This document shows positions 43,591 to 64,000 of a DNA stretch of 64,000 bases, one piece after another; position 1 is the stretch's first letter; each line of letters begins with the position of its first letter. The notes under the pieces were generated by a model. That model did not search any database. It worked only from the letters and a program-made list of their open reading frames with translations, and was not told where the DNA came from. The stretch is taken from the NCBI RefSeq assembly GCF_017068395.1, contig NZ_CP070619.1:1054001-1118000 (forward strand), read 5' to 3'. This DNA comes from Rhodococcus pseudokoreensis (GTDB lineage: Bacteria > Actinomycetota > Actinomycetes > Mycobacteriales > Mycobacteriaceae). The position numbers were made by a program, and so were the translations under genes.

Positions 43591-44040
43591 ATGTACTTCT
43601 CCGTAGAACAGCGGAACGGCGACGATTCCGGAGAGCATTCTGACGCCTCGGCGCAGCACGCACTCGAGAGTCTGCGCGTGGAACTCGACGCCGTCGACGC
43701 GACCCTGCTCGAGACGGTCCGGCAGCGTTTGGAAGTGTGCCTGCGGATCGGCGAACTGAAGCGCCGCGAGCACATCGCCATGATGCAGCCCGGACGGATC
43801 CACATCGTCCACGAACGGGCGCGTCAGTACGCCGACAGCCATTCCCTGTCCCCGGAGTTCTTCGACTCGCTCTACGACCTCCTCATCGCCGAGACGTGCC
43901 GGCTCGAGGACCTCGTGATCAATGCGGAGTCCGTCGACGAGGCCCCCCGCCGGGGCGGCAGCCACAACGGCAGCCACAACCACGCCGGCAACCACCAGGT
44001 TCGCCACAGTTCCGTGCCGTCTGCGAATGTCGAGTCGTGA
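43591..44040 (+). CDS. papB: Chorismate-mutase-type (AroQ) enzyme, PapB-like
   Basis: Probable 4-amino-4-deoxychorismate mutase, turning ADC into 4-amino-4-deoxyprephenate. The AroQ fold spans about residues 22-108: LRVELDAVDATLLETVRQRL, then RIGELKRREHIAMMQPGRIH-IVHERA and LYDLLIAETCRLED, the arginine/lysine-rich site expected for chorismate-type substrates. The tail (about 125-149) is rich in His, Gly, Ser and Asn (GGSHNGSHNHAGNHQVRH), unusual for the family and possibly metal-binding. The ATG at 43591 is taken; a GTG at 43576 would add five residues. It overlaps the next gene by one base. PapB rather than plain chorismate mutase is inferred from the partners. Confidence 0.8.
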   Translation: MYFSVEQRNGDDSGEHSDASAQHALESLRVELDAVDATLLETVRQRLEVCLRIGELKRREHIAMMQPGRIHIVHERARQYADSHSLSPEFFDSLYDLLIAETCRLEDLVINAESVDEAPRRGGSHNGSHNHAGNHQVRHSSVPSANVES

Positions 44041-46112
44041 TGAGTACCCGGACGCTGCTGGTCGACAATTACGACTCCTTCACCTACAACCTGTTCACCC
44101 TGCTGGCCGAGGTGAACGGCGAACCGCCCACCGTCGTGCACAACGACGTGGAGTGGAGTTCGATCCCCTGGTCCGACTTCGACAACATCGTCATCTCCCC
44201 CGGGCCCGGCCGGCCGGACCGCAAACGCGACTTCGGGATCAGCGCCCGCATCATCAGGGAGACCGAACTCCCGGTGCTCGGCGTCTGTCTCGGTCACCAG
44301 GGACTGTGCCAGCTGTTCGGCGGCAACGTGGTACTCGCGCCCGAACCGATGCACGGCCGCGTGTCGCTCGTCGACCACGACGGTTCCGAACTCTTCGCGG
44401 GCATTCCGTCACCGTTCCCCACGGTCCGCTACCACTCGCTGATCGTCGAGGATCTCCCCGGCGATCTCGAGGCCACCGCCTGGACGGCCGACGGTCTCCT
44501 GATGGGCGTCCGGCACCGCACGCGTCCGCTGTGGGGCGTCCAGTTCCACCCCGAATCGATCAGCACCGCGTTCGGCCACGAACTGCTCGCGAACTTCCGC
44601 GACCTCACGCAGACGCATTCCGGGACACCCACGCACGGATCCCTGCTCAGAATCCCGATCCCCCACGCGCCGTACGTGGTCCAGCAGGTGCGCGTCGACC
44701 ACGAAGTCGACCCCCGCACCACGTTCGAGGATCTGTTCGCGTCCGGACCCAACGCGTTCTGGCTCGACGGGACGTCGGCGTCGGAACCGACTTCGCGATT
44801 CACGATCATGGGCAACTGTTCCGGCCCGCGCGCCGAATACATCACGTACGACGTCAGCGAGGCGATCGTCCGGATCACGCGGGAGGGGTTGCCGGTCGAA
44901 CAGGTGCACGCACCGTTCTTCGACTACCTCGAACGGCAACTGCAGGCACGGTCGGTGCCGGGTCTCCCGGGTGTGCCGTTCGGCCTCGGCTACGTGGGGT
45001 ACCTCGGCTACGAACTGAAGGCCGAGACCGGTGGCACCGCGGCGCACAAGTCCCCCACCCCGGATGCCGCACTGGTGTTCGCGGACCGCGCCGTGGTCAT
45101 CGATCATTCGAACGAGCGCACGTACGCGCTGTGCCTGAGCGATCACCAGGACGATCCGGAGTTGCGCCGCTGGCTCGACGAGATGGAAGCGGCGCTGCAC
45201 CGGCTGGCCGAGCCGGACCACCCGACGACCGCGGTGCCGCCGATCCGGAAACCGGAGGCCGCCGAACTCGCCCTGCGTCACGACCACGACAAGTACCTCG
45301 ACCACATCGCGACGTCGCTCGGTGAGATCCGGACCGGCGAATCCTACGAGGTCTGTCTGACCAACATGGCGACGGTGGACCAGTCGATCAATCCGCTGCA
45401 CACGTTCGAACTGCTCCGCTCCATCAGTCCCACGCCGTACAGCGCCTACCTTCAGTTCGCCGGGCTGTCCGTTCTCAGTGCCTCCCCCGAGCGGTTCCTG
45501 AGGATCGGCGCGGACCGGGTGGTCGAGTCCAAACCGATCAAGGGGACGCGTCCGCGCGGCGCCACCCCCGCCAAGGATGCGGCGCTGCGGCAGGACCTGC
45601 TCGACAGCGAGAAGGATCGCGCCGAGAACCTGATGATCGTCGATCTGACGCGCAACGACCTGGCCCGGGTGTGCGTTCCCGGCTCGGTGCACGTTCCGAA
45701 GCTGTTCGACGTCGAAACGTACGCGGCCGTGCATCAACTCGTCTCGACCGTGCGCGGAACCCTCAGCGCCGACGCCTCCGTCGTCGAGTGTGTCCGTGCC
45801 GCCTTCCCCGGCGGATCGATGACGGGCGCCCCGAAGATCCGGACCATGGAGATCATCGACCGGCTCGAGTCCGGGCCGCGCGGTGTGTATTCCGGTTCGA
45901 TCGGCTACTTCTCCCTGACGGGGACGGCCGACCTGTCCATCGTCATCCGCACGATCGTCGCCACCGACACCGAGGTGACATTCGGCATCGGCGGTGCGAT
46001 CACGGCGCTGTCGGACCCGGAGGAGGAGTTCGACGAGGCAATGGTCAAGGCCGCCACCATGTTGCGGGCGCTGTCCGTGACAGCAGACCGGCCGAACGAG
46101 ATCGGGCAGTGA
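44040..46112 (+). CDS. papA: Fused aminodeoxychorismate synthase (PabA-PabB)
   Basis: Makes 4-amino-4-deoxychorismate from chorismate and glutamine. The 690-residue protein joins a glutamine amidotransferase (about 1-190: SPGPGRPD, catalytic Cys83 in GVCLGHQ, His170 and Glu172 in QFHPES) to a chorismate-binding synthase (about 230-690: ESYEVCLTNMA, ESKPIKGTRPRG, RNDLARVC, PGGSMTGAPKIRTMEIIDRL). Lys501 in PIKGT is the ADC synthase residue; anthranilate synthases have Ala there, so this is not TrpEG. The order amidotransferase-synthase matches PabAB fusions of chloramphenicol and pristinamycin loci. Start and stop overlap both neighbours. Confidence 0.92.
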   Translation: MSTRTLLVDNYDSFTYNLFTLLAEVNGEPPTVVHNDVEWSSIPWSDFDNIVISPGPGRPDRKRDFGISARIIRETELPVLGVCLGHQGLCQLFGGNVVLAPEPMHGRVSLVDHDGSELFAGIPSPFPTVRYHSLIVEDLPGDLEATAWTADGLLMGVRHRTRPLWGVQFHPESISTAFGHELLANFRDLTQTHSGTPTHGSLLRIPIPHAPYVVQQVRVDHEVDPRTTFEDLFASGPNAFWLDGTSASEPTSRFTIMGNCSGPRAEYITYDVSEAIVRITREGLPVEQVHAPFFDYLERQLQARSVPGLPGVPFGLGYVGYLGYELKAETGGTAAHKSPTPDAALVFADRAVVIDHSNERTYALCLSDHQDDPELRRWLDEMEAALHRLAEPDHPTTAVPPIRKPEAAELALRHDHDKYLDHIATSLGEIRTGESYEVCLTNMATVDQSINPLHTFELLRSISPTPYSAYLQFAGLSVLSASPERFLRIGADRVVESKPIKGTRPRGATPAKDAALRQDLLDSEKDRAENLMIVDLTRNDLARVCVPGSVHVPKLFDVETYAAVHQLVSTVRGTLSADASVVECVRAAFPGGSMTGAPKIRTMEIIDRLESGPRGVYSGSIGYFSLTGTADLSIVIRTIVATDTEVTFGIGGAITALSDPEEEFDEAMVKAATMLRALSVTADRPNEIGQ

Positions 46113-47029
46113 ACGTTCCGGCCGCATCCGCCAGGACCGTCGCGTTGATCGGCGGTTCGGGCGATGTCGGCCGGATGCTCGCCGATCGGCTCCGCGCCGC
46201 CGGAAACACCGTGCGCACCGTCGACATCCGGTTCACCGACCGGTCCGACGCGGATCAGGTCAAGGGCGACGTCACCGACCCGTCGCCGGAACTGCGGGCG
46301 GTGGTGCAGGCCGCCGATGCGGTGATCCTTGCGATACCCGAAAGCGTGGCGCTGGAGTCGATTCCGTTCCTCGTCGCGGAGTTGCCCGAGCACGCGCTGC
46401 TGGTCGACACGCTGTCCGTGAAATCGCGATTCGATGCGGCCCTGCGGGAGAGCGCACTGCGGGGCGGCGCGGTGGGCATCAACCCGATGTTCGCCCCGTC
46501 CCTCGGACCGGAGGGCCGCCCTGTCGCGGCCGTGACCTACCGGGACGGCCCCGGGGTCGAGTGGTTCCTGTCGGCCCTGTCCGGCTGGGGATCTTCGGTG
46601 GTCCGTCTGGACGCCGAACACCACGACCGGCTCACGGCAGCGACCCAGGCACTGACGCACGCCGGCGTCCTCGCCTTCGGCCTCGCTCTCGCGGACCTCG
46701 GTGTCGACGGCGGCGAACTCACCGCGGTGGCCACCCCACCGCATCTCGTCTCACTCGCGCTTCTCGCACGGGTCGGCAGCGGCGTCCCCGAGGTCTACCG
46801 GGACATCCAGGCCGGCAATCCCTTCGCCGGCGACGCCCGGCGCGCGCTCGCCGCCGCGCTCACCACCCTCACCGACACCGTCGAGCAGGGCTCAGACGAC
46901 GATTTCGCCGCGCTCATGTCCCGCGCGACGTCCCCGCTCGGCGACCGGATCGAACCCCTCGCCCGGCTGTGCGCCGACCTCTTCACCGATCTCGTTCACC
47001 GACGGCCGCGGAACGGAGATACGTCATGA
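46109..47029 (+). CDS. papC: Prephenate-dehydrogenase-type enzyme, PapC-like
   Basis: Probable 4-amino-4-deoxyprephenate dehydrogenase, giving p-aminophenylpyruvate. The 306-residue product starts with a Rossmann fold (VALIGGSGDVGRMLADRLRA, about 11-30), then VILAIPESVALESIPFLVAE and VDTLSVKSRF (TyrA-like), GINPMFAPSLGPEGRPVA and AEHHDRLTAATQALTHAGVL. The GTG at 46109 overlaps the papA stop, and its own stop overlaps the next ATG. No transaminase follows; a housekeeping aromatic aminotransferase would complete p-aminophenylalanine. Confidence 0.85.
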   Translation: MNVPAASARTVALIGGSGDVGRMLADRLRAAGNTVRTVDIRFTDRSDADQVKGDVTDPSPELRAVVQAADAVILAIPESVALESIPFLVAELPEHALLVDTLSVKSRFDAALRESALRGGAVGINPMFAPSLGPEGRPVAAVTYRDGPGVEWFLSALSGWGSSVVRLDAEHHDRLTAATQALTHAGVLAFGLALADLGVDGGELTAVATPPHLVSLALLARVGSGVPEVYRDIQAGNPFAGDARRALAAALTTLTDTVEQGSDDDFAALMSRATSPLGDRIEPLARLCADLFTDLVHRRPRNGDTS

Positions 47030-47985
47030 CGACCCAGAACATTCCCTCGCTCCCGGAGTACGACCCGTCCGATCCTGTGGAGAGTGCCGTCGTGACGCGG
47101 CTCGCGCGCAACTGGGGGCAGCGAGCGACCGTGAAGAAGCCGGAACCGGACCTCGACGCGCTGTTCGACCTCGGCAAGCAGGACTACCCGGACGAGTTGC
47201 TGCCGTTCGCCGATCACGACCGGTTCCTCCGGATGGGTAAGGAGCAACGGAACCAGCTGCGGGCGTGGGCGTGGATCGCGTTCAACAAGAACGTCATGGA
47301 CATCGAGCAGTACGTGGTCAATCCCGGGTTCGACCTCGTCGCGCACGACGCCCTGGACACCGGTCTCGGTGACACGTTCGCCGTGGCCGTCCACCAGGCG
47401 ATGGTGGACGAGCAGTACCACACCCTCATGCACCTGAACGCGAGCGCGGTCACCCGTCGGCAACGCGGTTGGGCGATGCCGAACAATGCCCTGCCCGACG
47501 TCCTGACGTTGCGCCGCCAGCGCGCGGCGACGGCCGAGGCCGCCGACCCGAGACAGCGGGCGATCACGACGTTCGCCTTCATGACGGTGGCGGAGATCTC
47601 GATCAGCTCCTACCTCGACCTGATCTCCGAGAACGACGTCATCCAGCCGGTCAACCGGGCGACGGTCCGGCTGCACAATCGCGACGAGTACTGTCACGCC
47701 TCCATCGCCGACGACATCGCGGCTGTCGTCTACGACACCCTGAACCCCGGCGACCGGCGGCTGTTCCTCGACGGGCTCGTCGACGCGATGACCGCCTTCA
47801 GCAGCAACGACTACTCGACGTGGCACACCATCGTCGACATCCTGGACCTCGACGGCGGTCAGGCGATGATCGACGACGCCGAACACGACACCCGCCGATC
47901 CGCGCTCGTCCAGGATTTCGGTGGCATCCACAAACTGTGCAAGCACCTCGGGGTCGCGGGCGAGATGTCCTACGAGTGGGCCTGA
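47026..47985 (+). CDS. AurF/CmlI-type di-iron arylamine N-oxygenase
   Basis: A 319-residue non-haem di-iron oxygenase of the AurF family, whose members turn aryl amines into hydroxylamine, nitroso or nitro groups. All seven expected metal ligands are present with the right spacing: Glu94 (MDIEQY), Glu129 and His132 (VDEQYHTLMH), Glu190 (TVAEIS), His217, Glu221 and His224 (LHNRDEYCHA). This matches AurF Glu101, Glu136, His139, Glu196, His223, Glu227, His230, with a constant offset of 6-7. The ATG overlaps the papC stop, so it belongs to the p-aminophenylalanine operon and probably acts on that amino acid, a derivative, or the NRPS-bound form. Confidence 0.88.
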   Translation: MTTQNIPSLPEYDPSDPVESAVVTRLARNWGQRATVKKPEPDLDALFDLGKQDYPDELLPFADHDRFLRMGKEQRNQLRAWAWIAFNKNVMDIEQYVVNPGFDLVAHDALDTGLGDTFAVAVHQAMVDEQYHTLMHLNASAVTRRQRGWAMPNNALPDVLTLRRQRAATAEAADPRQRAITTFAFMTVAEISISSYLDLISENDVIQPVNRATVRLHNRDEYCHASIADDIAAVVYDTLNPGDRRLFLDGLVDAMTAFSSNDYSTWHTIVDILDLDGGQAMIDDAEHDTRRSALVQDFGGIHKLCKHLGVAGEMSYEWA

Positions 47986-48037: not shown

Positions 48038-48523
48038 TCAGCTCGTCATGCTGGCGAACATCCCTGGCTCGTAGGTACCTGCCGGGTTGCGCACGATCAC
48101 GTTGATCCGATTGGCGGCGTTGATCAGGGCGACCAGGCAGACCAGGGCCGCGATCTGGTCGTCGTCGTAGTGCTTGCGCACCTGGTCCCAGGTGTCGTCG
48201 GATACGCCGTGGTGAGCGTCGGCGAGCCGGGTTCCCTCCTCCGCGAGCGCGAGCGCGGCACGCTCCGCCTCGGTGAATACGGTGGCCTCGCGCCACGCGG
48301 CGACCAGGTTGAGCCGAACCGGGGTTTCGCCGGCGACCGCGGCATCCTTCGTGTGCATGTCGGTGCAGAAGCCGCAGCCGTTGATCTGGCTGGCCCGGAT
48401 CTCGACCAGCGTCCGGGTGGCCTTCGGCAGCGGTGACTGGTCGATCGCCAGGGCGGCGCCCGCGAACCGCTTGCCGAACTTCAGGGCGATCTCGTTGGCG
48501 AACAGATTGAATCGAGCGTCCAT
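48038..48523 (-). CDS. Carboxymuconolactone decarboxylase / AhpD-like protein
   Basis: A 161-residue AhpD-fold protein. NGCGFCTDMHTKDA holds Cys50-x-x-Cys53 and His57, the thiol-peroxidase/disulfide-reductase type site; LALAEEGTRLADA and LVCLVALINAANRINVIVRN complete the fold. Pairing of such a gene with an ECF41 sigma factor is a known conserved arrangement, in which this protein is the main target gene. Its ATG lies about 50 bases from a sigma-type promoter. It likely handles a reactive or oxidised small molecule; not proven. Confidence 0.88.
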   Translation of the reverse strand: MDARFNLFANEIALKFGKRFAGAALAIDQSPLPKATRTLVEIRASQINGCGFCTDMHTKDAAVAGETPVRLNLVAAWREATVFTEAERAALALAEEGTRLADAHHGVSDDTWDQVRKHYDDDQIAALVCLVALINAANRINVIVRNPAGTYEPGMFASMTS

Positions 48524-48571: not shown

Positions 48572-48641
48572 GATGCCGGCCGCCCGATTTCCGTGACAAC
48601 CGCTCCCGTCCGGTTGTCACAGAACGGCGGGTTCCGGTGTC
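48572..48641. promoter_or_regulatory. Divergent ECF41-type promoters in a 10-bp inverted repeat
   Basis: GTGACAACCG 48593-48602 and CGGTTGTCAC 48611-48620 form a perfect inverted repeat. Towards the sigma gene, TGTCACA (48615-48621) is followed after 16 bases by TGTC (48638-48641). Towards the AhpD-like gene, TGTCACG (48598-48592) is followed after 16 bases by CATC (48575-48572). The published ECF41 promoter is TGTCACA-N16-CGTC, so each is one or two bases off. This suggests autoregulation plus control of the partner gene. Confidence 0.65.
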
Positions 48642-48679
48642 TGGTGTGTGACACCGTCGAGAACGAAGAGGAGCCACCC

Positions 48680-49615
48680 ATGGCCGGCACGTCGCAGACC
48701 ACACCCGACGATCTGGGCGGGAGCAGGGATGCTCGTTCGGATCCCGCCACCGAGGCGTTCGTCACCCACCGCAACCTGCTGTTCACCGTCGCCTACGAGA
48801 TGCTCGGCTCGGCCGCCGACGCGGAGGACATCCTGCAGGAGACCTGGCTGCGGTGGGCGGGCGTCGATCTGGGCACGGTGCGGAATCAGCGGGCATATCT
48901 GGTGCGAATCACCACCCGCCAGGCGCTGGTCCGGCTGCGCACACTCGGCAGGCGCAGGGAGTCCTACGTCGGCCCCTGGCTACCGGAGCCGTTGCTGACC
49001 GCGCCCGACGTGGCGGAGGACGTCGAGTTGGCCGACAGCGTCTCGATGGCGATGATGCTGGTGCTGGAGACGCTCGCACCCACCGAGCGGGCCGTGTTCG
49101 TGCTGCGTGAGGTATTCGATCTGGAGTACGGGGAGATCGCGGCCGCCGTCGACAAGAGCACGGACGCCGTCCGTCAGATCGCGCACCGGGCGCGGACCCA
49201 CGTCGCGGCGCGCCGGCCGCGGGGCGTCGTCACGCCGGCCGAGTCCCGGGATGCTCTCGACGCGTTCAAACGGGCGCTCGAGACGGGCGACCTGCAGAGC
49301 CTGCTCGACCAGCTGGCACCGGACGTCGTCCTCCTCGGTGACGGCGGCGGAGTCAAGCAGGCCGTGCTGCGACCCATCGTCGGGGCCGACAAGGTGGGCC
49401 GCCTGCTGGCGGCCGGCCTGCCCCGGATCGGCGGCGAGGTGTCGGTCGAACCCGTGCAGATGAACGGCTCCCCCGCACTGATCGTCCGGCTCGACGGGGA
49501 GATCGACGACGTCGTGGCCGTGCGGATGGACGACGGCCTGATCACCGGGCTCTACATCGTGCGCAACCCCGAGAAGCTGTCGCGGGTCGAGCAGGAAACC
49601 GCGGTGAGCCGCTGA
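48680..49615 (+). CDS. ECF sigma factor, group ECF41, with fused SnoaL-like domain
   Basis: A 311-residue extracytoplasmic-function sigma factor. Regions: sigma2 (about 25-90, LLFTVAYEMLGSAADAEDIL-QETWLRWAGVD), linker with the ECF41 hallmark YVGPWLPEP (WLPEP at 100-104), sigma4 (about 125-190, LAPTERAVFVLREVFDLEYG-EIAAAVDKSTDAVRQIAHRA). A C-terminal NTF2/SnoaL-like domain holds LLGDGGG and IVRNPEKLSR, variants of the DGGGR and NPDKL motifs that control this group in place of an anti-sigma factor. The ATG at 48680 has AGGAG upstream. It converges on the NRPS. Confidence 0.92.
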   Translation: MAGTSQTTPDDLGGSRDARSDPATEAFVTHRNLLFTVAYEMLGSAADAEDILQETWLRWAGVDLGTVRNQRAYLVRITTRQALVRLRTLGRRRESYVGPWLPEPLLTAPDVAEDVELADSVSMAMMLVLETLAPTERAVFVLREVFDLEYGEIAAAVDKSTDAVRQIAHRARTHVAARRPRGVVTPAESRDALDAFKRALETGDLQSLLDQLAPDVVLLGDGGGVKQAVLRPIVGADKVGRLLAAGLPRIGGEVSVEPVQMNGSPALIVRLDGEIDDVVAVRMDDGLITGLYIVRNPEKLSRVEQETAVSR

Positions 49616-49686: not shown

Positions 49687-52600
49687 TCAGTGCCCGGACC
49701 GCTCCTCGGCCTGAGCCACGAGCGCGGTGAGCGCCTCCACCCAGAACTGCCCGAACCGGTCCACTTCCGGTGCCGAGAGGATGCCGGGAGGGAACGACAT
49801 GAACGCCGACAACTGCAGGCCCTCAGCAGTTTCCGAGATCACCGACTGGATGTCGAGAACGGCCTGGGCAGGCATCGCACTCTTCTCGAATCCACCCGTG
49901 ACGGGCGATTCGAAGTCGGGCAGCCAGTCGAGTCCGCGGACCGCCTCGGGAACCTCGGCGGCGCTGACGCGTCCGATGTAGTTGAACACGATCTGCGGTT
50001 CCGGCCACTTCCTCATCACCGACGACGTGTCGGGGTTGAGGTACCGCAGCAGTCCGTATCCGATTCCCCGGTCCGGGATTGCACTCAGCTGATCCCGCAC
50101 CGCGCGCACGGCGTCCGCGGCACCCGCCCCGCCCCGCAGAGCGTCGGCGATGTCGACCCCGGCGAGATCGAGCCGTGCCGGGTACATCGTGGTGAACCAG
50201 CCGACCGTCCGCGACAGATCCGCACCCGGCACCGCGGACTCTTCACGTCCGTGACCCTCGAGTGTGACCACCGTCGACGAGGCCTCGACTCCGCGGTCGC
50301 GCCGCCATGCGGCCACCGCCAACGCGAGGGCTGCCGCGAGGACGTCGCCGATCTCACCGTCGAGCGCACCGGGCGTTCCGCCCAGCAACGCCTCGGTGAC
50401 CGGTGCCGGCACGTCCACCCGGGTCCGTTCCAGCGTGCCGACCACATCGGTGCGCAGGTCCAGCTCACGCGACCCCAGCAGCGGATCCGGACCGGTCAGC
50501 ATCCGTTCCCACACCGCGAGTTCGGCCACCCGCTCCGGTGTCGCCGCCGCCTCGAGCAGACCGTCGGTCCACCGCCGCAGCGACGTTCCGACCGGCTCGA
50601 GCGACGGCGTCGTGCCTGCGGCGATCTGGGCGCCTGCGGTCGCGAAGTCCGGCACCAGGATCCGCCACGACACGGAGTCGATGACGAGGTGGTGCGGCAC
50701 GACGAGGAGCCGTCCGCGCCGATCCGACTCGGTGGGGTCGAACCAGACGAACTGGAGCATCGACCCGGTGCGCGGATCGAGACGATCCAGCGCCGTGTCG
50801 AATGCCGCACCCGCCACCGCGTCGAACTCCGGCGAACCGGGCTCGGCGCCTGCCTCGATCTCCACCCGCTGCAGGGTGGCGTCGATGTCGACGCTGCCCG
50901 TGGGCGCGATCTCGAGCGCGTCCCCGGCACCGCCCGTGACCAGTGTCGACCGCAGCACGTCGTGCTGGTCGACCACAGCGGTGATCGTCGCGACGACCTG
51001 CTCGCGTTCGATCCCGGCCGGGAGTGTCAGCAACAACGGCATGACGAATCGGTCGAAGTCACCGCCGCGCTCGACCATCTTGCGGGCGACCGGGGTGAGC
51101 GGCACCGTTCCGACGCCGCCCCCCTCGTACTCCGCCAGTACCGCCGCCGCGGACTCACCCGAATCGGCCACTGCTGCCAGTTCGGCAACGGTGCGCCGCT
51201 CGAACACATCCCGCGCGGTGAAGTGGATACCGGCCGAACGGGCCCGCGCCACCAGCTGGATGGACACGATGCTGTCGCCGCCGAGTTCGAAGAACGAGTC
51301 GTCGATGCCGACACTCTCCCGGCCGAGCAGCTCCCCGAACACGGTCGCGAGGGCCCGTTCGGTGTCGGTGCGCGGCGCGCGGAACTCCGCCGCCGACGCG
51401 AAGTCCGGCACCGGCAGCGCGCGCCGGTCGAGCTTGCCGCTGGTGCCCAGCGGAAGCTCCGCGAGAACCATCACGGAATCCGGGATCATGTACTCGGGCA
51501 ACGATTCCGCGACGAACGCATTCAGCGCCGCCTGGTCGATGGCCGCGTCGGGCCTCGGCACGACGTAGGCGACGAGCCGCGCGCCCACCTCACTGTTGTG
51601 CACGATCACCGCTGCCTGCGCCACGTCGGCGTGCCGAGCGAACGCCTCCTCGACCTCGCCGAGCTCGATGCGCAGGCCGCGCACCTTCACCTGGAAGTCG
51701 GTGCGGCCCACGAACTCGAGGACACCGCTCTCGTTCCACCGGACGAGGTCACCGGTGCGATACATCCGCACACCCGGATCGCCGAACGGATTCGCGACGA
51801 ACCGTTCCGCACTCAGCGCGGCGCTGTTGACGTAGCCTCGCGCGAGTTGCGCGCCGTCGAGGTACAGCTCGCCGGGCACACCGACCGGCGCCGGGTTCAG
51901 GTGGGCGTCGAGCACGTAGGCCCGGGTGTTCCAGGCGGGCGAACCGATCGGCGCGATCGTCGCCGTCCCCGACCGCTCCACCACGTGGGCCGTCGAGTTG
52001 ATGGTCACCTCGGTGGGGCCGTACAGGTTCACCAGCTCCGCGGAGCCGAGTCCCGCGACCCGCTCGGCCGCCGACTGCGGCAGCGGCTCACCGCCCGCGA
52101 ACACGAGACGCAGCGAACCGCACCCGTCGGCGGTCGCGGCGTCGAGGAACATGGTGAGCACGGACGGGACGAACTGGATCACCGTCACCGACTCGGTGTC
52201 GACCGTCGCGGCCATGTACTCGGGATCGCGATGACCGTCCGGCGACGCCATCACGAGGGTTCCGCCGACCACCAACGGCAGGAACAGCTCCCACACGGAC
52301 GCGTCGAACGTGAACGGCGTCTTCTGCAGCACCACGTCCTGCGCGTCGATGCCGTAGACGTCGCCCATCCACGCCAGCTGGTTGGCCAGCGCCGAGTGCG
52401 GAATCGCCACACCCTTCGGCCGTCCCGTCGAACCCGACGTGTACAGCGCGTACGCCAGGTTGTCCGGGCGCAGGTCGCCGAGCCGTTCGGTGTCCTCGAT
52501 CGGACCGTCGCCGTACCCGGACAGGTCGAAGTCCTCGACCAGGTACACCGGGACCTCCACATCGAGGTTCGCGATGTCGTCGGCCGAACTCAGCACGCAG

Positions 52601-55600
52601 GCCGGCGTGGCGCTGTCCACCACGTACGACGTCCGGTCGGCCGGATGCTCGGGGTCGATCGGCACGTACGCGCCGCCCGCCGCGTGGACGGCGTAGAGGC
52701 TGGTCAGCATGTCGAGCGAGCGCCGCATCGCGATGCCCACCACGGTGTCCGGTCCCACGCCCATCGTCATCAGGTGCCGCGCCAGGCGGTTGACCCGCGC
52801 GTCGAACTCGGCGTAGGTGAGCCGCACGTGGTCGGCCACCACGGCGGTCCGATCGGGTGTGCGCGCAACCTGGGCACCGAACATCGACACCACGGATTCT
52901 TCCGCGACGTCGCGGCGGGAATCGTTCCATCCGGACAGGACGAGGTCGCGCTCGTCCTGCGTGAGCAGGTCCAGATCGCCTACCAGAGTAGAACTTCCGG
53001 CCGCGATGGTCTGCAGGATCCGGTTCAGCCGGGAACCGAGACGTCCGACGGTGTCGGCGCCGAACACGTCCGGAAGGTACTTCAGGACGAGTTGCAGTTC
53101 GCTGTCCGACTGCGCCAGCAGGCTCAGCGGGTAGTGCGAGGCGTCGCTGATCTGCACCCCGGCGACCCGGAGGCCGTCGATGTCGCTGTCCTCGGTGAGT
53201 CCCGCCCGGTCGACGGGGTACGACTCGAACACCGTCAACGTGTCGAACAGCCCGCCGATACCGGCGATCTGCTGGATCTCGGGGAGACCGATGTGGTGGT
53301 GGTCGAACAGAGCGGACTGTTCCGCCTGCAACCGTTCGAGCAACCCGAGGATCGACTCGCGGGGATCGACCCGCACCCGGATCGGGATGGTGTTGATGAA
53401 CAGACCCACCATCGACTCGATGCCCGCGACCTCCGGTGGGCGACCCGACACGGTGGCGCCGAAGACGACGTCGTCGGACGCGGTCATCCGGGCCAGCAGC
53501 AGACCCCACGCCGCCTGGACGATCGTGTTCATCGTCAGGCCGCGATCCCGCGCGATGCGCGCCAGGTTCTCGCTCACCACCTCGCCGAGATGCAGCGCGA
53601 TCTCGGCGGGCTCGGGACGGTCCTCACCGGGCGGCGCCGGGGCGAGGACGGTCGGCCCGTCCAGCCCGGCCAGTGCGTGCGCCCAGGCGCTGCGCGAGGC
53701 GTTGGCGTCGCGTTCGGACAGCCAGCTGAGGAAGTCACGGTAGCCGCGGACCCGCGGCAGCACCGAGCCGTCTCCGCGGGTCGCGTACAGCACCAGCAGA
53801 TCCTTCATCAGCAACGGCATCGACCATCCGTCGAGCAGGATGTGGTGGTTGCTGATGGAGAACCGGTAGCTGCTCTCCCCCGTGCGGATCAGCAGGAACC
53901 GCATGAGAGGCGGACGGCCCATGTCGAACCGCGCCGAACGGTGTTCGCTCAGAACCGAACCGATCCGCTCCTCACGGTCGGCCTCGGACAGCGCCGACAG
54001 GTCGAGCTCTTCCCACGGCAGTGCGACGTGGTCGACGACCACCTGGACCGCGGTCCCCGAATCGTCGGGGACGAACGCGGTGCGCAGGTTCGCGTGCCGC
54101 GCGATCAACGCTTCCGCCGCGCCGCGGAGGCGGCCGGTGTCGACGACGCCCCGGAAGTCGAGCACCACCTGAGCGGTGTAGACGTCCACCGCGTCCTCGG
54201 CGAGAACGGAATGGAAGAACATTCCGGACTGCAGCGGAGCCAGCGGCCACACGTCGGTCGCGGCGGGGTAGCGCCGTTCGAGCGCCTCGAGGTCGTCCTG
54301 CGTCACGGTCACGAGCGGGACGTCGGACGGCGTGAGACCGCCGCTCTTCGGCCCGGACGCATGCTCGGCGAGCGCGGTCGCCGCGGCGTGCCACAGCTCC
54401 GCGAACTCCCACACGTCCGCCTCGTCGAGAATCTCGGTGGCGAAGGCGATCTTGGCCTCGATCTGGGGGCCGGACGCCGTCTCCGACGTCACCGCGTTGA
54501 TGCTGAGCACCGCAGGCGCCACCATCTCGTCGTCCATGGCGCCGCCGAACTCACCGGAGTCGCTGTCGGGAATCCAGCCGAGATCCCGGATCTCGGCGGG
54601 CAGATCCACCGAACCCGCCCGGCCGAGGTAGTTGAACCCGATCTGCGGCGTCGGCAGCGACGCCAGAGCCGGAGCCGTCTCGTCGTTGAGGTAGCGCAGC
54701 AGGCCGTAGCCGATGCCCTTGTCGGGCACGGCCAGCAACTGTTCCTTGACTGCCTTCAACGCAGACCCCGCCGAGGTGCCGCCGTCGAACGCGTCGGCGA
54801 GATCGGCCCGCGAGACGTCCAGCCGCACCGGGTACAGGCTGGTGAACCAGCCCACCGTGCGCGCGAGGTCGGCACCGGGAACGGTCGACTCTTCGCGGCC
54901 GTGTCCCTCCAGGTTGATCAGCACCGACCGATCCGTGGTGCCGCCGCGGAGTTCACGCCAGCGCGATACCGCGAGGGCGAGCGCCGCGAGCAGGCCGTCG
55001 TTGACGCCACCGTTCACGGACTGCGGAATCGTGGTCAGCAGCGCCTGCGTCACCTGCGTCGAGAACGTCATGCTCAGGCGGTCGGTCCGGGCGATCACGT
55101 CGCGTTCCGGATCGAACGCGCGCCGCCCGATCAGCGGATCGGTTCCCGCGAGCATGCCGCGCCAGAAGTCGAGTTCGGCCACGCGGTGCGGAGACTTCGC
55201 CTCCTCCGCGAGTCCGTGCGCCCACGCCCGGACGGAGGATCCGACCGGTTCGAGCTGCGCGGGCGCTCCCGCCATGATCTGCGAACCTGCGGTCGCGAAG
55301 TCCGGCAACAGCACTCGCCACGACACCCCGTCGACGACGAGGTGGTGCGCAAGCACCAGCAGGCGTCCGCTCTGACCCGGCAACGACTCCGCGGGCGCGA
55401 ACCACACGAACTGCGTCATCCGGCCCGACGCCGGATCGAGGCGGTCCGCGGCACGACTGAGAGCCGCGCGGGCCAGCCGCTCGAACTCGTCGGTGCCCGG
55501 CTTGTCGGTGAACTCGATCTGCTCGATCAGGTCGTCCGCGTCGAACGCCCGTCGAACGGAGAGCGCCTCGAACGACCAGTCGTCCCCGGCCCGCGTGAGC

Positions 55601-58600
55601 CGGGAGCGGAGGATGTCGTGGCGCGCCAGGATCGCGTCCACCGTGTCCGCCAGCTGATCTCGTGTGACGGCGGGCGGGGTGGTCAGCAGGACGGCCTGCG
55701 AGAACTTCTCGAACGTTCCTGCCGTCTCCACCAGCCAGTGCGCGATCGGGGTGAGCGGCATCGTTCCGACGCCGCCGCCCGGCAACTCCTCGAGCTTCAC
55801 CGAGTCGACCTCGGTGGCCCAGGCGGCCACCTCGGCCAGCGCCGCCACGGTCTTGCGTTCGAAGACGTCTCGCGCGGTGAACAGCACCCCGGCGTTCTTC
55901 GCCCGGGTCGTCAGCTGGATGGACACGATGCTGTCGCCGCCGAGCGCGAAGAACGAGTCGTCGACGCTGACCCGGTCGACGCCGAGAACCTGCGCGAAGA
56001 CGTCGGCGATGGCCTTCTCCATCGGCGTGGACGGCGCGGTGTAATCACTGGCGACCGACACGAACTGCGGCTCGGGAAGTGCCTTGCGGTCGAGCTTGCC
56101 CGCGGGTGTCAGCGGAACCGAGTCGATGGCCATGATCGACGACGGAACCATGTACCCGGGCAGGGTCTCGGAGACGAACGCCGACAGTTCGGCGACGTCG
56201 ATCGACGCACCCGCTGCGGGCATGACGTACGACACCAGCACGGTCTGCCCGGTGTGCTCGCGGTGGTGGCCGAGCGTGACCGCGAAGTCGACACTCGGGT
56301 GCCTGCCGAGTTCGGCGTCGATCTCGCCGAGTTCGATGCGGAATCCGCGGACCTTCACCTGGAAGTCGGAACGGCCGACGTAGTCGAGGACGAGGTCGCC
56401 CGTCTCGTCGTCGTGCACCCAGCGGACGACGTCGCCGGTGCGGTAGAGCCGCTCACCGGGACCGCCGAACGGGTTGGCGACGAATCGCTCCGCCGTCAGG
56501 GCGAACCGGTTGTGGTAGCCGCGGGCCACACTCGGACCCGCGACGTACAGCTCACCCGCGACACCCACCGGGACCGGCGTGAGACGGGAATCGAGAACGA
56601 CCACGTCGACGCCCCGGGTGGGACCGCCGATGGTGACGGGCCGATCCGCGTTCATCGGGTTGCTCGACGTACTCCAGATCGTCGCCTCGGACGGGCCGTA
56701 CAGGTTGAACATGCGCCTGCCCGGTGCCCACTTCTGCATGAGCTCCGGCGGGCACGCCTCGCCGGCCACCGACAGCACCTCGATGCCTTCCAACCCGGCC
56801 GGGTCCACCGTCGTGAGCGCGGCGGGTGTGATGAAGGCGTGCGTGACCTTCTGCTTCTTCAGCAACCGCGCGAGTTCGTCTCCGCCGTACACGACGCCGG
56901 ACGCGATGACCATCGTCGACGCGGCGGCCACTGCGTGCAGCAACTCGAAGACCGATGCGTCGAAACTGGGCGAGGCGAAGTGCAGCACCCGCGACTGCGG
57001 GGTGACCCGGAGCCGCTCGACCTGCTCGGTCGTGACGTTCGCCAGGCCCGTGTGGGTGACGACGACGCCCTTGGGCAGGCCCGTCGATCCCGACGTGTAG
57101 ATCACGTACGCGGCGTCGTCGACCCGGGTCGGCCGGATGCGGTCCTCGTCGGTGACGGCCTCGTTCGACACGGACGCGCACGCGTCGTCCATCTCGTCCG
57201 CACCGAGCACCAGCCAGCGCACGGTGTCCGGGAGCTCTGCGACGTGGGCGCCGGTGGTGAGACCGATCTCCACGCGAGAGTCCGTGACCATGTGCATGAT
57301 CCGGTCGAACGGGTAGCTCGGGTCGACCGGGACGAACGCCGCCCCGGTCTTCGCGACCGCCCAGATGGAGAGGATCGATTCGACGGAGCGTGTCAGCGCG
57401 AGTGCCACGAAGTCGTCGGCCCCGATGCCCCTGCCGATGAGAACGCGGGCGAGACGGTTCGAGCGCTCGTCGAGTTCGCGGTAGGTGACCTGTTCGTCGC
57501 CGCACACGACGGCGACGGCGTCGGGGTTCACTGCCGCGGCGGCGCCGAGGATGCCCGACAGCAGCTCGGGTGCGGCGGTGTCCGCGCCCCGCACCGGGGC
57601 GAGCACGGCGTGCTCGTTCTCGCTGAGGACGTCGATGTCGCCGATCAGCACGGACGCGTCGGCGGTGATCGCCTCGAGGATGCGCTGGAAACGGAACGCG
57701 AACGACGCGATGGTGCGCTCGTCGAACAGATCCGTCGCGTAGGTGAACACGCCGCGCATCGGCCCGTCACCGTCCGCGCCTGCCGCGTCGGCGAGCGTGA
57801 GCTGCAGATCGAACTTCGCGGCGCTGATCCCACCGTCGAGTCCCTCGACCGTCAGCCCGGGCAGTTCGAGGTGCGCCTGCTCGATGTTCTGGAACGCGAG
57901 AGCCACCTGGAACAGCGGCGAGAACGCGGTCGAGCGTTCCGGCTGCAGGATCTCGACGAGCCGCTCGAACGGCACGTCGGTATGCGTGAACGCACCGAGG
58001 TCGTGCTGACGCACCTGTGCGAGGAGGTCGGCGAACGTCGCGTCGACGTCGACCTGCGCGCGCAGCACCAACGTGTTGACGAACATGCCGACCAGGTCGT
58101 CGAGTGCGGCCTCGCCGCGGCCCTCGATCGCGGTGCCCACCGCGATGTCGTCCGTGGCGCTCAGCCGCGCGAGCAGCACCGACAGCGCCGCGTGCGCGAC
58201 CATGAACAGCGACGCGTTGTGCTCGCGGGCCAGCGCCCCCAGCCGGTCGCGCAGTTCCGCGTCGATCTCGAAATCGAAGTTGGCGCCGCGCATCGACTGT
58301 GCGGGCGGCCGCGGCCGGTCCGTCGGCAACGGCAGCACGTCCGGCAGACCGCTCAGCGTGGTCCGCCAGTAGTCGATCTGCTGGGTGGCCAGCGAATCCG
58401 GGGCGTTCTCGTCACCGAGCAACTCGTGCTGCCAGAGCGAGAAGTCCGCGTACTGGACGTCGAGCGGCGCCCAGGCGGGTTCCGAGCCGGCGGCGCGGGC
58501 GCTGTAGGCGATCACCACGTCGCGTGCCAGCGGTGCCGTCGAGGCGCCGTCGGACGAGATGTGGTGGACGACGATGACCAGCACGTGCTGTTCGGCGTCG

Positions 58601-61600
58601 ATCCGCAGGAGGCGGGCCCGGACCGGGACCGCCGTCGCGACGTCGAATCCGGCGGTGACGAGGGAGATCACGCGTTCGCGCAGCACGGTCTCGTCGGCGA
58701 CGTCCTCGACGTCGAGGGCCGTGAAACTCCGGGCCCGCGACAGCACGACCTGGCCCGGTCCGTCACCGGTGTCGGGGTAGGTGGTGCGCAGCGTCTCGTG
58801 CCGCTCGACGACGTCGCCGAGTGCCTGCTCGAGCGCGGCGACGTCGAGGTGGCCGGTCAGCCTGATCGCCAGCGGAATGTTGTACGCCGCCGACGCGGTG
58901 TCGAACTGGTTGATGAACCACATGCGGGACTGCGCCGGGGACAGCGGAATCCGGGTGGGACGCGGCTGCGGCACCAGCGCCGGCCGGTTCGCACCCGCCG
59001 AATCGGACTGCTCGGCGCGAGCCGCCAGCGCGATCACGGTCGGCGCCTCGAACAGCTCCCGCACACCGATCGACGTGTCGAGGGCTGCGTTGAGCCGGGC
59101 GACCACGCGGGTCGCGACCAGCGAGTTGCCACCGAGGTCGAAGAAGCTCGTGTCGGCGCTGACCCGCTCGTGACCGAGGACGTCCGCGAAGACTCCCGCC
59201 ACGATTTCCTCGACCGGGGTGCGCGGAGCCCGGTAATGGTCCGCGGCGCCGCCGAACTCGGGCTCGGGAAGGGCCTTGCGGTCGAGCTTGCCGTTGATGT
59301 TCAGCGGCAGCTCGTCGAGCGCGATGAGCGCGGACGGCACCATGTACCCGGGTACCGACCTACCCGCGAACGCGAGGACGTCGGCGTCGTCGACGAAACC
59401 GCCCCGCTCCGGCACGGAGTAATCGCGTGCCTCCGGCACGGAGTCACCGCGCGCCTCCGGCACGACGTAACCGACGAGGCGGTCGCCGGTGTGCCGGTCG
59501 CTGTGCACCACCACGACGGCCTGCGCGACCGCCGGGTGCGCGACGAGGGCACGCTCGATCTCGCCGAGTTCGATGCGGAAACCGCGGACCTTCACCTGGA
59601 AGTCGCTGCGGCCGACGTAGTCGAGGTTGCCGTCGCGGTTCCACCGGACGAGGTCGCCGGTGCGGTACATCCGCGCTCCGGCCTCGCCGAACGGGCTGGC
59701 GACGAATCGTTCCGCGGTGAGGTCGTGGCGGCCGAAGTACCCGCGCGCCAACTGCTCGCCCGCGAGATAGAGCTCACCTGTGACGCCGGCGGGAACGGGG
59801 TGCAGACGCGAATCGAGAACGTAGGTCTGCGTGTTCCATTCGGGCCTGCCGATCGGGACCGAGCCGTCGCGCTCGTCGCCGCACCGGTAGTGGGTGACGC
59901 TGACGGCGGCCTCGGTGGGGCCGTACAGGTTGAAGATGTCCGCGTCGCTGACGTCCCGGAACCGGAGCACCGTGTCGGCGGGCAGGGCCTCACCGATGCA
60001 CAGCACACGCTGCAACGACGCCAGCTGCGCCGGTTCTGCCACCGCGACGAACGCCGACAGCAGCGAGGGCACGAAGTGCACCGTCGACACCTGCTGCTCG
60101 GCGACGAGTGCGGCCAGGTACGACGGGTCGCGGTGACCGTCCGGCGCGGCGACGACGAGCCGTGCGCCGGCGGTCAGCGCCCACCAGAACTCCCACACTG
60201 ACAGGTCGAACGTGGCCGCCGTCTTGAGCAGCACCGAGTCCTCGGCGGTGAGCGGGTATTCCGACTGCTTCCACCGCAACTGGTTCGCGATCGCAGCGTG
60301 CGCGATCGCGACGCCCTTCGGCCGGCCGGTGGATCCGGACGTGTAGATCACGTACGCGGCGTTCTCCGGCCGCAGCGGTGCGGTCCGCTCCGCGTCGGTC
60401 AGCGGAGCCGGGTCGACATCGCCGAGGTCCAGTTCGTCGAGCAGGAGGTAGTCGACATTGCCGGGCAGTCCCCCGACGACGTCGCGGGTCGCCAGGACAC
60501 AGACGGGTTGCGCGCTCTCCAGCACGTACGCGGTGCGCTCGGCCGGATGGTCCGGGTCGATCGGCAGGTATGCGCCGCCCGCCGCGGCGATCGCGTACAT
60601 GCCGACCAGCAGGTCCACCGAACGCGGAATGGCCAGGCCCACCACGGTTTCCGGGCCGACACCGCGGCCCGCGAGATGCCGGGCCAAGCGGTTCACCCGC
60701 GCCGAGAACTCGGCGTACGTGAGCGATTCGCCGTCGAACACGAGAGCGGTGACGTCCGGGTTCTCCGCGACGGCGGCCGCGAACATGTCCGCCAGCGTCG
60801 TCGCCGGCAGGGCCTGCGCGGTGTCGTTCCATCCGGACACCACGAGTGCGCGCTCGTCGCTGCCTGCGAGCGGCAGGTCGCCGACCGCGGTCCGCGGCGA
60901 ATCCACCGCGGCGACCAGAACGCGGCGGAACATGTCCGCGAAGCGCTGGACGGTGGCGGCGTCGAACAGGTCGGTGGCGAACGTGAACACACCCGACATC
61001 TGCTCACCCTCGGGGCTGTCCCCCAGGATCAGATGCAGATCGAACTGCGCGGTGTCGCCCTCGACGTCGAGCGGCGCGACGGTGAGGTCGGGCAGTTCCA
61101 GCTCGGCCTTCGTCGTGTTCTGGAACGAGTAGCCCACCTGGAAGATCGGGTGGTGCGCCATCGAGCGTGCCGGGTTCAGGACCTCGACGAGGCGCTCGAA
61201 CGGGACGTCGGCGTGCGAGAACGCCTCGAGGTCGGCCTCGCGGGCACGATCGAGGATCTCGTCGAATGTCTGCCGTCCGTCGACCTGCACCCGCAGTGCG
61301 AGGGTGTTGACGAACATGCCGACGACGTCGTCGAGTTCGCGCTCGCCGCGGCCGGCGATCGGGGTGCCCACCGCGATGTCCTCGGTGCCGGACAGTCGGC
61401 TGAGCAGCACCGCGAACGCGGCGTGCACGGCCATGAACACGCTGGCGTTGTGCCTGCGGGCCAGTGCGGCCAGCCCGCGGTGCACCTCGGCGTCGACGGT
61501 GAAATCGATCCGCGACCCGCGCAGCGACTGCACGGGCGGGCGCGGCCGGTCCACCGGCAGTTCGAGGAGGTCGGGCACGCCCGCGAGGGTCTTCGTCCAG

Positions 61601-64000
61601 AAGCCCAGCTGGGCGGCGATCAGGCTGTCCGGGTCGTCCTCGCTGCCGAGGAGTTCCCGCTGCCAGATCGCGTAGTCCGCGTACTGCACCGGAAGCGGCG
61701 CGAAGCCGGGTTCCCGGCCTGCCGCCCGGGATGCGTACGCCACCATGACGTCACGCACGAACGGGGCGGTGGATTCGCCGTCGGTCGACACGTGGTGCAC
61801 GACGAGTGCCAGCACGTAGTCCTTCGGGCCGACCTCGAACAGTCGCACCCGGATCGGCGGCACATCGGCGGTGACGTCGAATCCGGTGGACACCATCGCC
61901 GTCAACTGCTCGCGCAGTTCGGTCTCGGTGACCGGAACGGGTGCGACATCGATCGGCGCCTGCGCGGCCGGGAGGATCACCTGGTGCGGGCCGTCGGCCG
62001 AATCCGGGTAGATCGTGCGGAGCGACTCGTGCCGCTCCAGCACGTCGAACACCGCGGACTGCAGTGCGTCGACGTCCAGCGCGCCGGTCAACCGGACCGC
62101 GAGCGGGATGTTGTAGGCGGGCGAGTCCGGGTCGAAGCGGTTGATGAACCACATCCGGGACTGCGCCAGCGACAGCGGGACGAAGGCAGACCTCTCCCGT
62201 GGTGCGAGGACGGGCCGTGGCCGGACGTTCTCGTCCGGGGTGGCGATGCGGGCGGCCAGGCCCGCGACCGTCGGAGCCTCGAACAGTTGCCGCACGCCGA
62301 TGCGGAGGCCGAAGACCTGTCCGGCCCGCGACACGACCCGAGTGGCGCTCAGCGAGTTTCCGCCGAGGTCGAAGAAGCTGTCGTCGACGCTGACCTGCTC
62401 GAGTCCGAGCACGTCGGCGAAGATGCCTGCGATCGTCTCTTCGGCGGGTGTCGTCGGGGCACGGAACTCCGCACCCGCGGACACGAACTCGGGCTCGGGC
62501 AGGCGCGCCCGGTCCAGCTTGCCGATGCCGGTCAGCGGGATCTCGTCGAGAACGATCACGACGGACGGCACCATGTACGGCGGAAGCGTTTCGCCGACAA
62601 CCGACTTCAGCGATTCCGGATCGATCGCCGCGCCGTCGGCGGGCAGGACGTACGACACGAGGGTCGTCAGTCCGGCGGGGTTCTCGCGACCCACGGTCAC
62701 CGCGAACTCGATGTCCGGCTGGGCGGTCAGGGCGGCGTCGATCTCGCCGAGTTCGACGCGGAACCCGCGGACCTTGACCTGGAAGTCGGACCGGCCGACG
62801 TACTCCACCCGATGTCCGTCCGCCCAGCGCACGACGTCGCCGGTGCGGTACATGCGGGCGCCGGGCTCGCCGAACGGGTTGGCCACGAACCGTTCCGCCG
62901 TGACGGACGGACGGTTGTGGTAGCCGCGGGTCACCGACGGACCACAGATGTACAGCTCCCCGGGCACGCCCTCCGGCACCGGACGCAACCGCGAATCGAG
63001 TATGAGCGATTCGACGCCACGCAGCGGCGAGCCGATCGTGACGCGTTCACCGGCCACCATCGGTTCGGTGATGGTGACGATGACCGTGGTCTCGGTGGGA
63101 CCGTACGCGTTGCGCATCTCGCGGCCGGGAGCCCACCGCGCCACGAGTTCCGGCGTGCAGGTGTCGCCGCCGACCACGACGGACGTGACGGAGTCGAGGC
63201 CGTCGGGGTCGACCGTCATCAGCGCGGTCGGCGTCATGACGACGTTGTTGACCTGTTCGCGGCGGATCAGGTCGGCGAGTTCGTCGCCGCCGTAGACGTC
63301 CGCGGGCGAGATCACCAGGGTGGCGCCCGCGCTGAACGCGGCGAGCATCTCCCCGACCGACGTGTCGAAGCTCGGCGACGCCACGTGCAGGAACCGGGAA
63401 TCCGGTGACACGACGTAGTGCTCGCGCACCTCGCGGGTGAGGTTGGCCAGACCGCGGTGGGTGACCACCACGCCCTTCGGCTTGCCTGTCGAACCCGACG
63501 TGTAGATGAGGTACGCGGGGTGATCGACCGTCAGCGCGCGGCGCAGATCGGCGTCCTCCACCGCGACCGCACTGCGGGCAGCGATCTCCTCGGTGGCTTC
63601 CGTCTCGTCGAGGACGATCCACGGCACCGTGTCGGGCAGGTCGGTGTGGTGGCGGGCGACCGTCAGTCCGAGGACCGCTCCCGAATCGGACAGCATCTCG
63701 CCGATCCGCTCGAACGGAAGCTTCGGATCGACGGGCAGGTAGGCGCCGCCGGCCTTGGCGATCGACCAGATCGCGAGGATGGATTCGACGGAGCGCGTGA
63801 TCGCCAGCGCGACATAGTTCTCCGGCCCGACACCTCGATCGATCAGGACGCGCGCCAGCCGGTTCGACTGCTCGTCGAGTTCGCGGTACGTGAGCTGACG
63901 GCCCTCGAAGGACACCGCGACCGACTCCGGCGAGATCTCGACGCCCGAACGCAGAAGTTCCGGCAGCGTGCTCGGCTCGACCGACTTCGGCCCGCGGACC
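49687..64000 (-). CDS. Giant nonribosomal peptide synthetase, last four modules, 5' end missing
   Basis: The frame is open through the right edge, so the start lies outside; at least 4770 residues are visible. Order, N to C: A1-T1 (64000-62260), C2-A2-T2 (62200-59030), C3-A3-T3-E3 (58960-54360), C4-A4-T4-E4 (54290-49740). Carrier serines sit in LGGNSL (T1, T2) or LGGDSI (T3, T4, the form before E). C2 and C3 are LCL-like (AQSRMWFIN); C4, after E3, is DCL-like (HHILLDGWS). Both E domains keep [20 protein letters not shown] and FNYxGR; E4 has HHLVIDS where DG is usual. Pocket residues (GrsA numbering) read by eye: A1 DTGVVGAVIK, A2 DLWHLILVSK, A3 DAFFSALIWK, A4 DAWQFGLINK. There is no thioesterase, reductase or MbtH in view. 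Confidence 0.95.
59407..59478 (-). repeat. In-frame 24-bp tandem repeat inside A2
   Basis: Three adjoining 24-bp units (59407-59430, 59431-59454, 59455-59478), the last one diverged, encode [22 protein letters not shown] between the A8 and A10 motifs of the second adenylation domain. The other three A domains lack it. It adds two or so eight-residue units to a surface linker in the C-terminal subdomain and is likely a slippage product. Confidence 0.8.

Follow-up and report, generated by a model that had tools for sequence, protein, structure and literature searches.

What is made by a compact four-gene operon that lies close to a giant nonribosomal peptide synthetase (NRPS) gene in Rhodococcus pseudokoreensis? 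We analyzed a 64,000-nucleotide stretch of the genome (RefSeq GCF_017068395.1, contig NZ_CP070619.1; hereafter the window), which corresponds to C6:1054001-1118000 of the 9.87-Mb genome G000. The operon probably makes p-aminophenylpyruvate and p-aminophenylalanine (PAPA), to be N-oxygenated for a nonribosomal peptide, and would be a chloramphenicol-type precursor module whose PabAB synthase also serves folate. Its genes in the window, with lengths in amino acids (aa) and start codons, are the following.

43591..44040, plus strand: CM, a 4-amino-4-deoxychorismate mutase candidate (CmlD/PapB-like, chorismate mutase type II family), 149 aa, ATG
44040..46112, plus strand: PabAB, a PabA-PabB fusion, 4-amino-4-deoxychorismate (ADC) synthase, 690 aa, ATG
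46109..47029, plus strand: PapC/CmlC-like 4-amino-4-deoxyprephenate dehydrogenase, 306 aa, GTG
47026..47985, plus strand: predicted CmlI-type di-iron arylamine N-oxygenase, 319 aa, ATG

Consecutive genes overlap by 1, 4 and 4 bases (mutase/PabAB, PabAB/PapC and PapC/oxygenase, respectively). The coordinates and the Pfam and NCBIfam matches confirmed what a preliminary description had proposed, four coupled genes for a PapB-like mutase, a PabA-PabB fusion, a PapC-like protein and an AurF/CmlI-type oxygenase. The identical order recurs in 58 loci outside chloramphenicol-type clusters and is therefore not a chance arrangement; all four genes occur in 61 of the 133 oxygenase-bearing loci, three of them chloramphenicol-type, with several genomes entered twice in these counts. 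The preliminary description knew of no described product with this layout and this kind of NRPS in Rhodococcus-like bacteria; we found the operon to be a near-core feature of rhodococci, present in 27/28 genus genomes including that of the window, as well as in related genera. At E<=1e-40, the oxygenase gene was detected in the same 27 genomes and in all 24 of good quality, and the fetched neighborhoods of the 26 other positive genomes contained the full four-gene set. The single miss was a 75% complete genome, and in a 74% complete one (G016) the oxygenase match was fragmented. Among named relatives, R. koreensis has the closest oxygenase (97%), followed by those of R. wratislaviensis, R. opacus and R. 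jostii (92-93%). In the wider family, the oxygenase was found in 96/301 genomes (E<=1e-60). Other genera contributed 20 fetched loci, of which 17 carried all four genes and 3, from the fascians clade, PapC and CmlI only; the mutase and PabAB of that clade were at a separate locus in 7/7 genomes tested.

PabAB has the Pfam domains GATase, Anth_synt_I_N and Chorismate_bind and scored 364.7 with the TIGR00553 pabB model (cut-off 328.4). It contains VESKPIKGTRPRG, with the ADC-synthase lysine motif (PIKGT) that had been noted earlier in the fusion, and the motif is present in the PabABs of all 61 four-gene loci. The best solved chain was 8hx6, titled 'ADC synthase', matching at full length with 829 bits, whereas E. 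coli-type PabB chains reached 209; the same chain matched the chloramphenicol-type PabAB of locus L263 with 1512 bits. The window's genome, the only one surveyed in this respect, has four PF00425 proteins: TrpE, the operon PabAB and two isochorismate synthases. PabAB, whose reaction is the first committed one on the way to p-aminobenzoate, was thus the sole ADC-synthase-type protein found among them, and as no other ADC synthase was found, folate synthesis in this genome probably depends on PabAB. Viral contigs scanned for PabAB gave no match.

The operon as a whole could then serve mainly folate and aromatic amino acids, with PabAB leading to p-aminobenzoate, the mutase and PapC to tyrosine, and the oxygenase acting like AurF on p-aminobenzoate. 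A single ADC synthase could alone explain the conservation of PabAB, and the operon is retained in genomes without a neighboring NRPS. The other three proteins argue against this explanation. The mutase (CM_2 match 1.3e-15) passed the CM-like model TIGR01803 with 81.5 bits (cut-off 73.35), as did the chloramphenicol-type mutase of L264 (88.7), a passing score for a subfamily model being no proof of the mutase substrate, and it remained under the cut-offs of those chorismate mutase equivalog models of NCBIfam that it matched. PapC barely exceeded the Pfam cut-offs for PDH_N and PDH_C and was under the NCBIfam cut-off of every prephenate dehydrogenase model matched. The oxygenase is a clear member of the AurF family PF11583 (8.7e-50; 169.9 bits against a cut-off of 29.6) but scored 172.1 bits with the model of AurF proper, the p-aminobenzoate N-oxygenase (NF045603), for which the cut-off is 620. 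Folate synthesis requires neither mutase, PapC nor oxygenase, so folate can explain the retention of PabAB and not that of the three genes conserved with it. A folate role is probable, but we consider it quite unlikely that the operon is mainly for folate and aromatic amino acids. Service to folate only had been named in the preliminary description as a possible refutation.

The assignment of the oxygenase as AurF/CmlI-type held for the AurF family and could be narrowed toward CmlI. The protein matched 5hyg with 264 bits (residues 18-318) and AurF (3chh) with 152 bits. The title of 5hyg in the Protein Data Bank is 'Uncharacterized protein'; we take the chain to be CmlI, which is compatible with its 699-bit match to CmlI from L263, a chloramphenicol-type cluster. 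Seven positions that we take, from AurF, to be the di-iron ligands are invariant in 131/131 aligned homologues longer than 250 aa. From the four assignments we infer a route in which PabAB would convert chorismate to ADC, the mutase would rearrange ADC to 4-amino-4-deoxyprephenate, PapC would oxidize this to p-aminophenylpyruvate, and a general aminotransferase would yield PAPA. The CmlI-type enzyme, with either the small molecule or a peptide that contains PAPA as its substrate, would oxidize the aryl amine toward a hydroxylamino, nitroso or nitro group, and PabAB would additionally supply ADC for folate. As judged from sequence, an N-oxidized p-aminophenyl unit is the likely output, in support of the earlier proposal.

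We also considered how far such a system is already known. The combination of pap genes with an arylamine N-oxygenase is not a new one, being the core of chloramphenicol biosynthesis: in Streptomyces venezuelae, the three steps to the precursor are assigned to cmlD, cmlC and cmlB, and the N-oxygenation to cmlI (PMC4249514). Obafluorin likewise combines a PAPA-derived precursor with a di-iron N-oxygenase, ObaC, which is itself distant from the chloramphenicol oxygenase, at only 19% identity (PMC5490192). Among our loci, those of Streptomyces omiyaensis (L263), Micromonospora matsumotoense (L264) and Saccharothrix sp. (L265) hold CmlI, CmlP, CmlA, PabAB, PapC and mutase together and are, by this gene content, chloramphenicol-type clusters. 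They share the four enzyme types with the operon at identities of 57-59% for PabAB, 46-52% for PapC, 43-44% for CmlI and 46-51% for the mutase, the last measured on the three mutases over 89-104 positions. The Rhodococcus operon differs in gene order and coupling and in having large multimodular NRPSs nearby rather than a single A-T-reductase protein (CmlP). The enzymes are known, and the arrangement is new. What sets this variant apart is that the operon is conserved across the genus and repeatedly linked to giant NRPSs in arrangements that change, that the chloramphenicol continuation appears to be absent and that the ADC synthase appears to be the only one.

The phylogeny of the oxygenases was inferred from 112 sequences, after removal of 20 loci as duplicates of included genomes, and rooted on the chloramphenicol oxygenases. 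Operon and split-operon oxygenases cluster with 16 actinobacterial sequences, from Streptomyces, Nocardia and others, that have no PapC nearby (support 1.0), and the larger groups containing them exclude the chloramphenicol enzymes (support 0.999). The monophyly of the operon and split-operon oxygenases themselves had a support of only 0.165. The window's genome encodes three more AurF-family proteins (G000:C6:2506556, 6413486 and 2311749; L001-L003), which score 326-335 bits with PF11583 against 170 for the operon oxygenase. A second CmlI-like gene, 47-49% identical and with no pap genes in the 20 kb fetched, occurs in some of the Rhodococcus genomes (L044-L049, L246, L249, L250); similar genes are also found in Mycobacterium-type genomes. 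In six Streptomyces loci (L214, L222, L225, L232, L235, L236), a CmlI-like gene (51-58%) is followed directly by a PabAB-type synthase, and neither PapC nor mutase was found; these are perhaps p-aminobenzoate-derived nitroaryl clusters.

A nitrophenyl product from Rhodococcus is not without precedent. Corynecins, which are such products, have been reported from Rhodococcus sp. H-CA8f, and antiSMASH has called a corynecin cluster in R. erythropolis strains (PMC10819586, PMC9557007). The operon may thus make corynecins, with PAPA hydroxylated, reduced and N-acylated to chloramphenicol-like p-nitrophenylserinol antibiotics. The producers belong to the same genus group, and to make a nitrophenyl product they would need the same precursor and an N-oxygenation. 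In strain PFS1.20, the corynecin region is ~108 kb long, and a separate 'chloramphenicol' region is on another contig (PMC13163003). A length of ~108 kb would suit the operon plus nearby NRPS genes, but either region could hold the operon. Ten erythropolis-type genomes have a single CmlI-like gene each (E<=1e-40), that of the operon, and one of the called regions therefore probably includes it. Nevertheless, the chloramphenicol continuation seems to be missing in Rhodococcus. The CmlA beta-hydroxylase domain (CmlA_N, PF18456) was found in 0/28 genus genomes in a search whose own control was empty, though the model matches 5/394 class genomes. The test for CmlP was weaker: 0/11 genomes had a CmlP-like protein at E<=1e-70, with no known CmlP holder among them and with the best 78 of the 89-248 candidates per genome scored; two CmlPs from different genera are 61% identical in a pairwise comparison. 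Six stretches fetched in a CmlA-based hunt for chloramphenicol clusters contained no pap genes, while the named loci L263-L265 did. With no CmlA found, the route to nitrophenylserinol is unexplained, and we consider corynecins an unlikely product of the operon. How Rhodococcus forms nitrophenyl products such as corynecins, given that neither CmlA nor CmlP was found, is now a testable question. In the open-licence literature we found no paper linking corynecin with cmlI.

If the amine is instead N-oxidized for a peptide, which NRPS would use it? Downstream of the operon, the window contains three features.

48038..48523, minus strand: AhpD/CMD-type protein (PF02627), between operon and NRPS
48593..49615, plus strand: sigma-70 family (ECF-like) factor (Sigma70_r2/r4_2), between operon and NRPS
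49687..64000, minus strand: C-terminal part of a giant NRPS, the candidate consumer; the open reading frame (ORF) continues past the window end to G000:C6:1137556

The NRPS is a single minus-strand ORF of 11,289 aa (G000:C6:1103687-1137556; L005/L006). Based on motifs, it consists of nine modules, C-A-T-E, six C-A-T, C-A-T-E and C-A-T-E, and differs in this from the humimycin type with seven modules and a thioesterase (TE). No Thioesterase match was seen in its C-terminal 4,742 aa, and since the protein ends in an E-type (epimerization-type) domain, release or hand-over of the product is unexplained. Modules 3 and 5 have an extra ~105-130 aa between C and A, which looks by eye like part of an A-domain N-terminus.

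Loci had been fetched from 47 genomes; in 36 of these we examined the operon neighborhood and found an NRPS gene in 28, within 7.1 kb in 27 and at 15.4 kb in one; the neighborhoods are not phylogenetically independent. Among the remaining 11 genomes, the 11.3-kaa (thousand amino acids) NRPS type was inside the 20-kb stretch in seven. Orthologues of the 11.3-kaa NRPS adjoin the operon in R. tibetensis (84% over 1,499 residues) and, over ~1,500 residues, in a Rhodococcus metagenome-assembled genome (69%) and in R. rhodnii (53%, with one stop codon within the aligned stretch). The gene is convergent and downstream in the opacus-type clade, whereas in R. rhodnii it lies on the opposite side, divergent and 449 bp away. 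In genera g10 and g22, the neighbor is another NRPS type of ~9,000 aa with a TE, in convergent orientation; a relative of it, read as two ORFs, is divergent in genus g16 (G042), and a 7.4-kaa version occurs in g27 and in genome G020. Two NRPS families thus keep their proximity to the operon in both orientations.

The TE of the 9-kaa type extends the association to rearranged loci. All seven fascians-clade genomes have a TE relative whose start is 0.75-0.80 kb away from the relocated PabAB. The one NRPS read there (G159, last 4,461 aa) is collinear, at 55-62% identity, with the NRPSs of g10, g22 and g16, which adjoin complete operons. R. marinonascens, G014 and G025, with no NRPS beside the operon, have a 9-kaa-type TE elsewhere at 62-71% identity, and in the window's genome the nearest TE relative (69%) belongs to a 9,007-aa NRPS located 7.5 Mb away and read over its last 3,240 aa. 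A hand tally of the 301 family genomes, uncorrected for relatedness, gave a TE (E<=1e-90) in 71, of which 69 also have a CmlI-like gene, compared with 96/301 overall; the pattern follows genera, which makes the co-occurrence weak evidence. We infer that the consumer in the window's clade would most likely be the adjacent nine-module 11.3-kaa NRPS, the distant 9-kaa NRPS with a TE, or both, and that in other genera it would be the 9-kaa type adjoining the operon.

The operon might, however, make an NRPS-independent small molecule such as p-nitrophenylalanine, p-nitrophenylpyruvate or a derivative, the NRPS neighbors then reflecting a locus that is rich in NRPSs and close to the S10 ribosomal protein operon. 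Consistent with this, G014 and the loci of erythropolis and fascians type have the operon near the S10 block but differ in the adjacent NRPSs, and five genomes lack an NRPS within ~26 kb. The S10 proteins were recognized by eye in these loci and by Pfam in the window only. The maintained proximity to two NRPS families in both orientations and the half-operon beside an NRPS thioesterase at a separate locus in all seven fascians-clade genomes argue against a free small molecule, to which we give a low probability.

A peptide-bound fate for the amine remains the reading that we prefer, and several observations on neighborhoods and adenylation (A) domains weigh against it. The five operons with no NRPS within ~26-30 kb on both sides are those of G007 (R. 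marinonascens), G014, G025, G068 and G294, and G002, G022 and G138 had none either in the stretch retrieved, which was short on one side. The identities between the G159 NRPS and fragments of the 11.3-kaa NRPS of the window, 53-54%, are not much lower than those of the supposed orthologues, so that the distinction of the families leans on collinearity more than on identity. A TE at 1e-90 was missing in 27/96 CmlI-positive genomes and was present without a CmlI-like gene in one g25 and one g16 genome. The NRPS partners vary by clade, and NRPSs are very common, with 46-75 condensation domains per genome in four genomes; their proximity to the operon could for these reasons be due to chance.

The A-domain codes add to these doubts. 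We extracted codes from 244 A-domain segments, including three CmlPs and some duplicates of one domain, at positions that we take from GrsA numbering. The three CmlP codes, DASMECAVC, DATMQCAVC and DATMQAAVC, follow the pattern DA[ST]M[EQ][CA]AVC, and a similar pocket was seen in none of the nine codes of the window's NRPS nor in any A domain of the operon-neighboring NRPSs; among the codes listed, only those of the CmlPs themselves were of this kind. The link to the adjacent NRPS is plausible, but no module could be assigned. Codes beginning with DALFVG, the commonest in the neighboring NRPSs, were dropped as a PAPA code since they are also present in NRPSs distant from the operon. The operon-linked NRPS-TE family shares a code in the terminal module whose last residue is Gln (DAFFAAGIQ, DAYFAGGIQ, DAFFAGGIQ), DAFFAAGIQ being that of the 9-kaa NRPS, and the candidacy of this code is only a guess. 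PAPA could be accepted by a different A-domain pocket. CmlI acts on the released product; here, the oxygenase might do so too, or the substrate might be loaded already oxidized. None of five A-domain codes searched was found in the open-licence literature, nor was any paper on aminodeoxychorismate together with nonribosomal peptides in Rhodococcus, or on chorismate mutase with an N-oxygenase and an NRPS.

In g10 and g22, the NRPS that neighbors the operon is built of seven modules with a TE, with codes in modules 2 and 5 that we take to be Ser-type and Thr-type, respectively. By description these features fit humimycin-type NRPSs, since one NRPS with that architecture is reported to differ in modules 1, 3, 4, 6 and 7 (PMC5550956). 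As a tentative extension that may well prove wrong, giant Rhodococcus peptides, including those of humimycin type, which have so far been synthesized from predicted amino acids, could contain an N-oxidized PAPA-derived residue across most rhodococci, with the operon as the sole gate to folate and the vitamin and the peptide competing for one ADC synthase. If so, a nitro- or hydroxylamino-aryl building block would be a standing feature of rhodococcal peptides that is missed by A-domain prediction, and the way in which these peptides are synthesized and searched for should change. The apparently single ADC synthase ties a secondary pathway to folate.

The two genes between the operon and the NRPS were dropped as parts of the system. 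Among 52 stretches searched, the AhpD/CMD-type gene was present in L051 only and is probably not a part, and the sigma factor gene was present in L050 and L051 only and probably does not belong to the conserved system. The S10 ribosomal protein operon (L3, L4 and S3 by Pfam) lies at ~16.3-21.8 kb of the window, separated from the pap operon by ~22 kb. The two adjoin each other, beside a DUF4442 gene, in loci of the erythropolis and fascians types (L064, L193, L213), and the S10 operon seems to be a fixed landmark against which the pap operon has moved. In the window, the stretch from the S10 block to the pap operon includes an mce/MlaD-type transport gene set on the minus strand (25596-33688), with an MlaE permease gene at 32882-33688.

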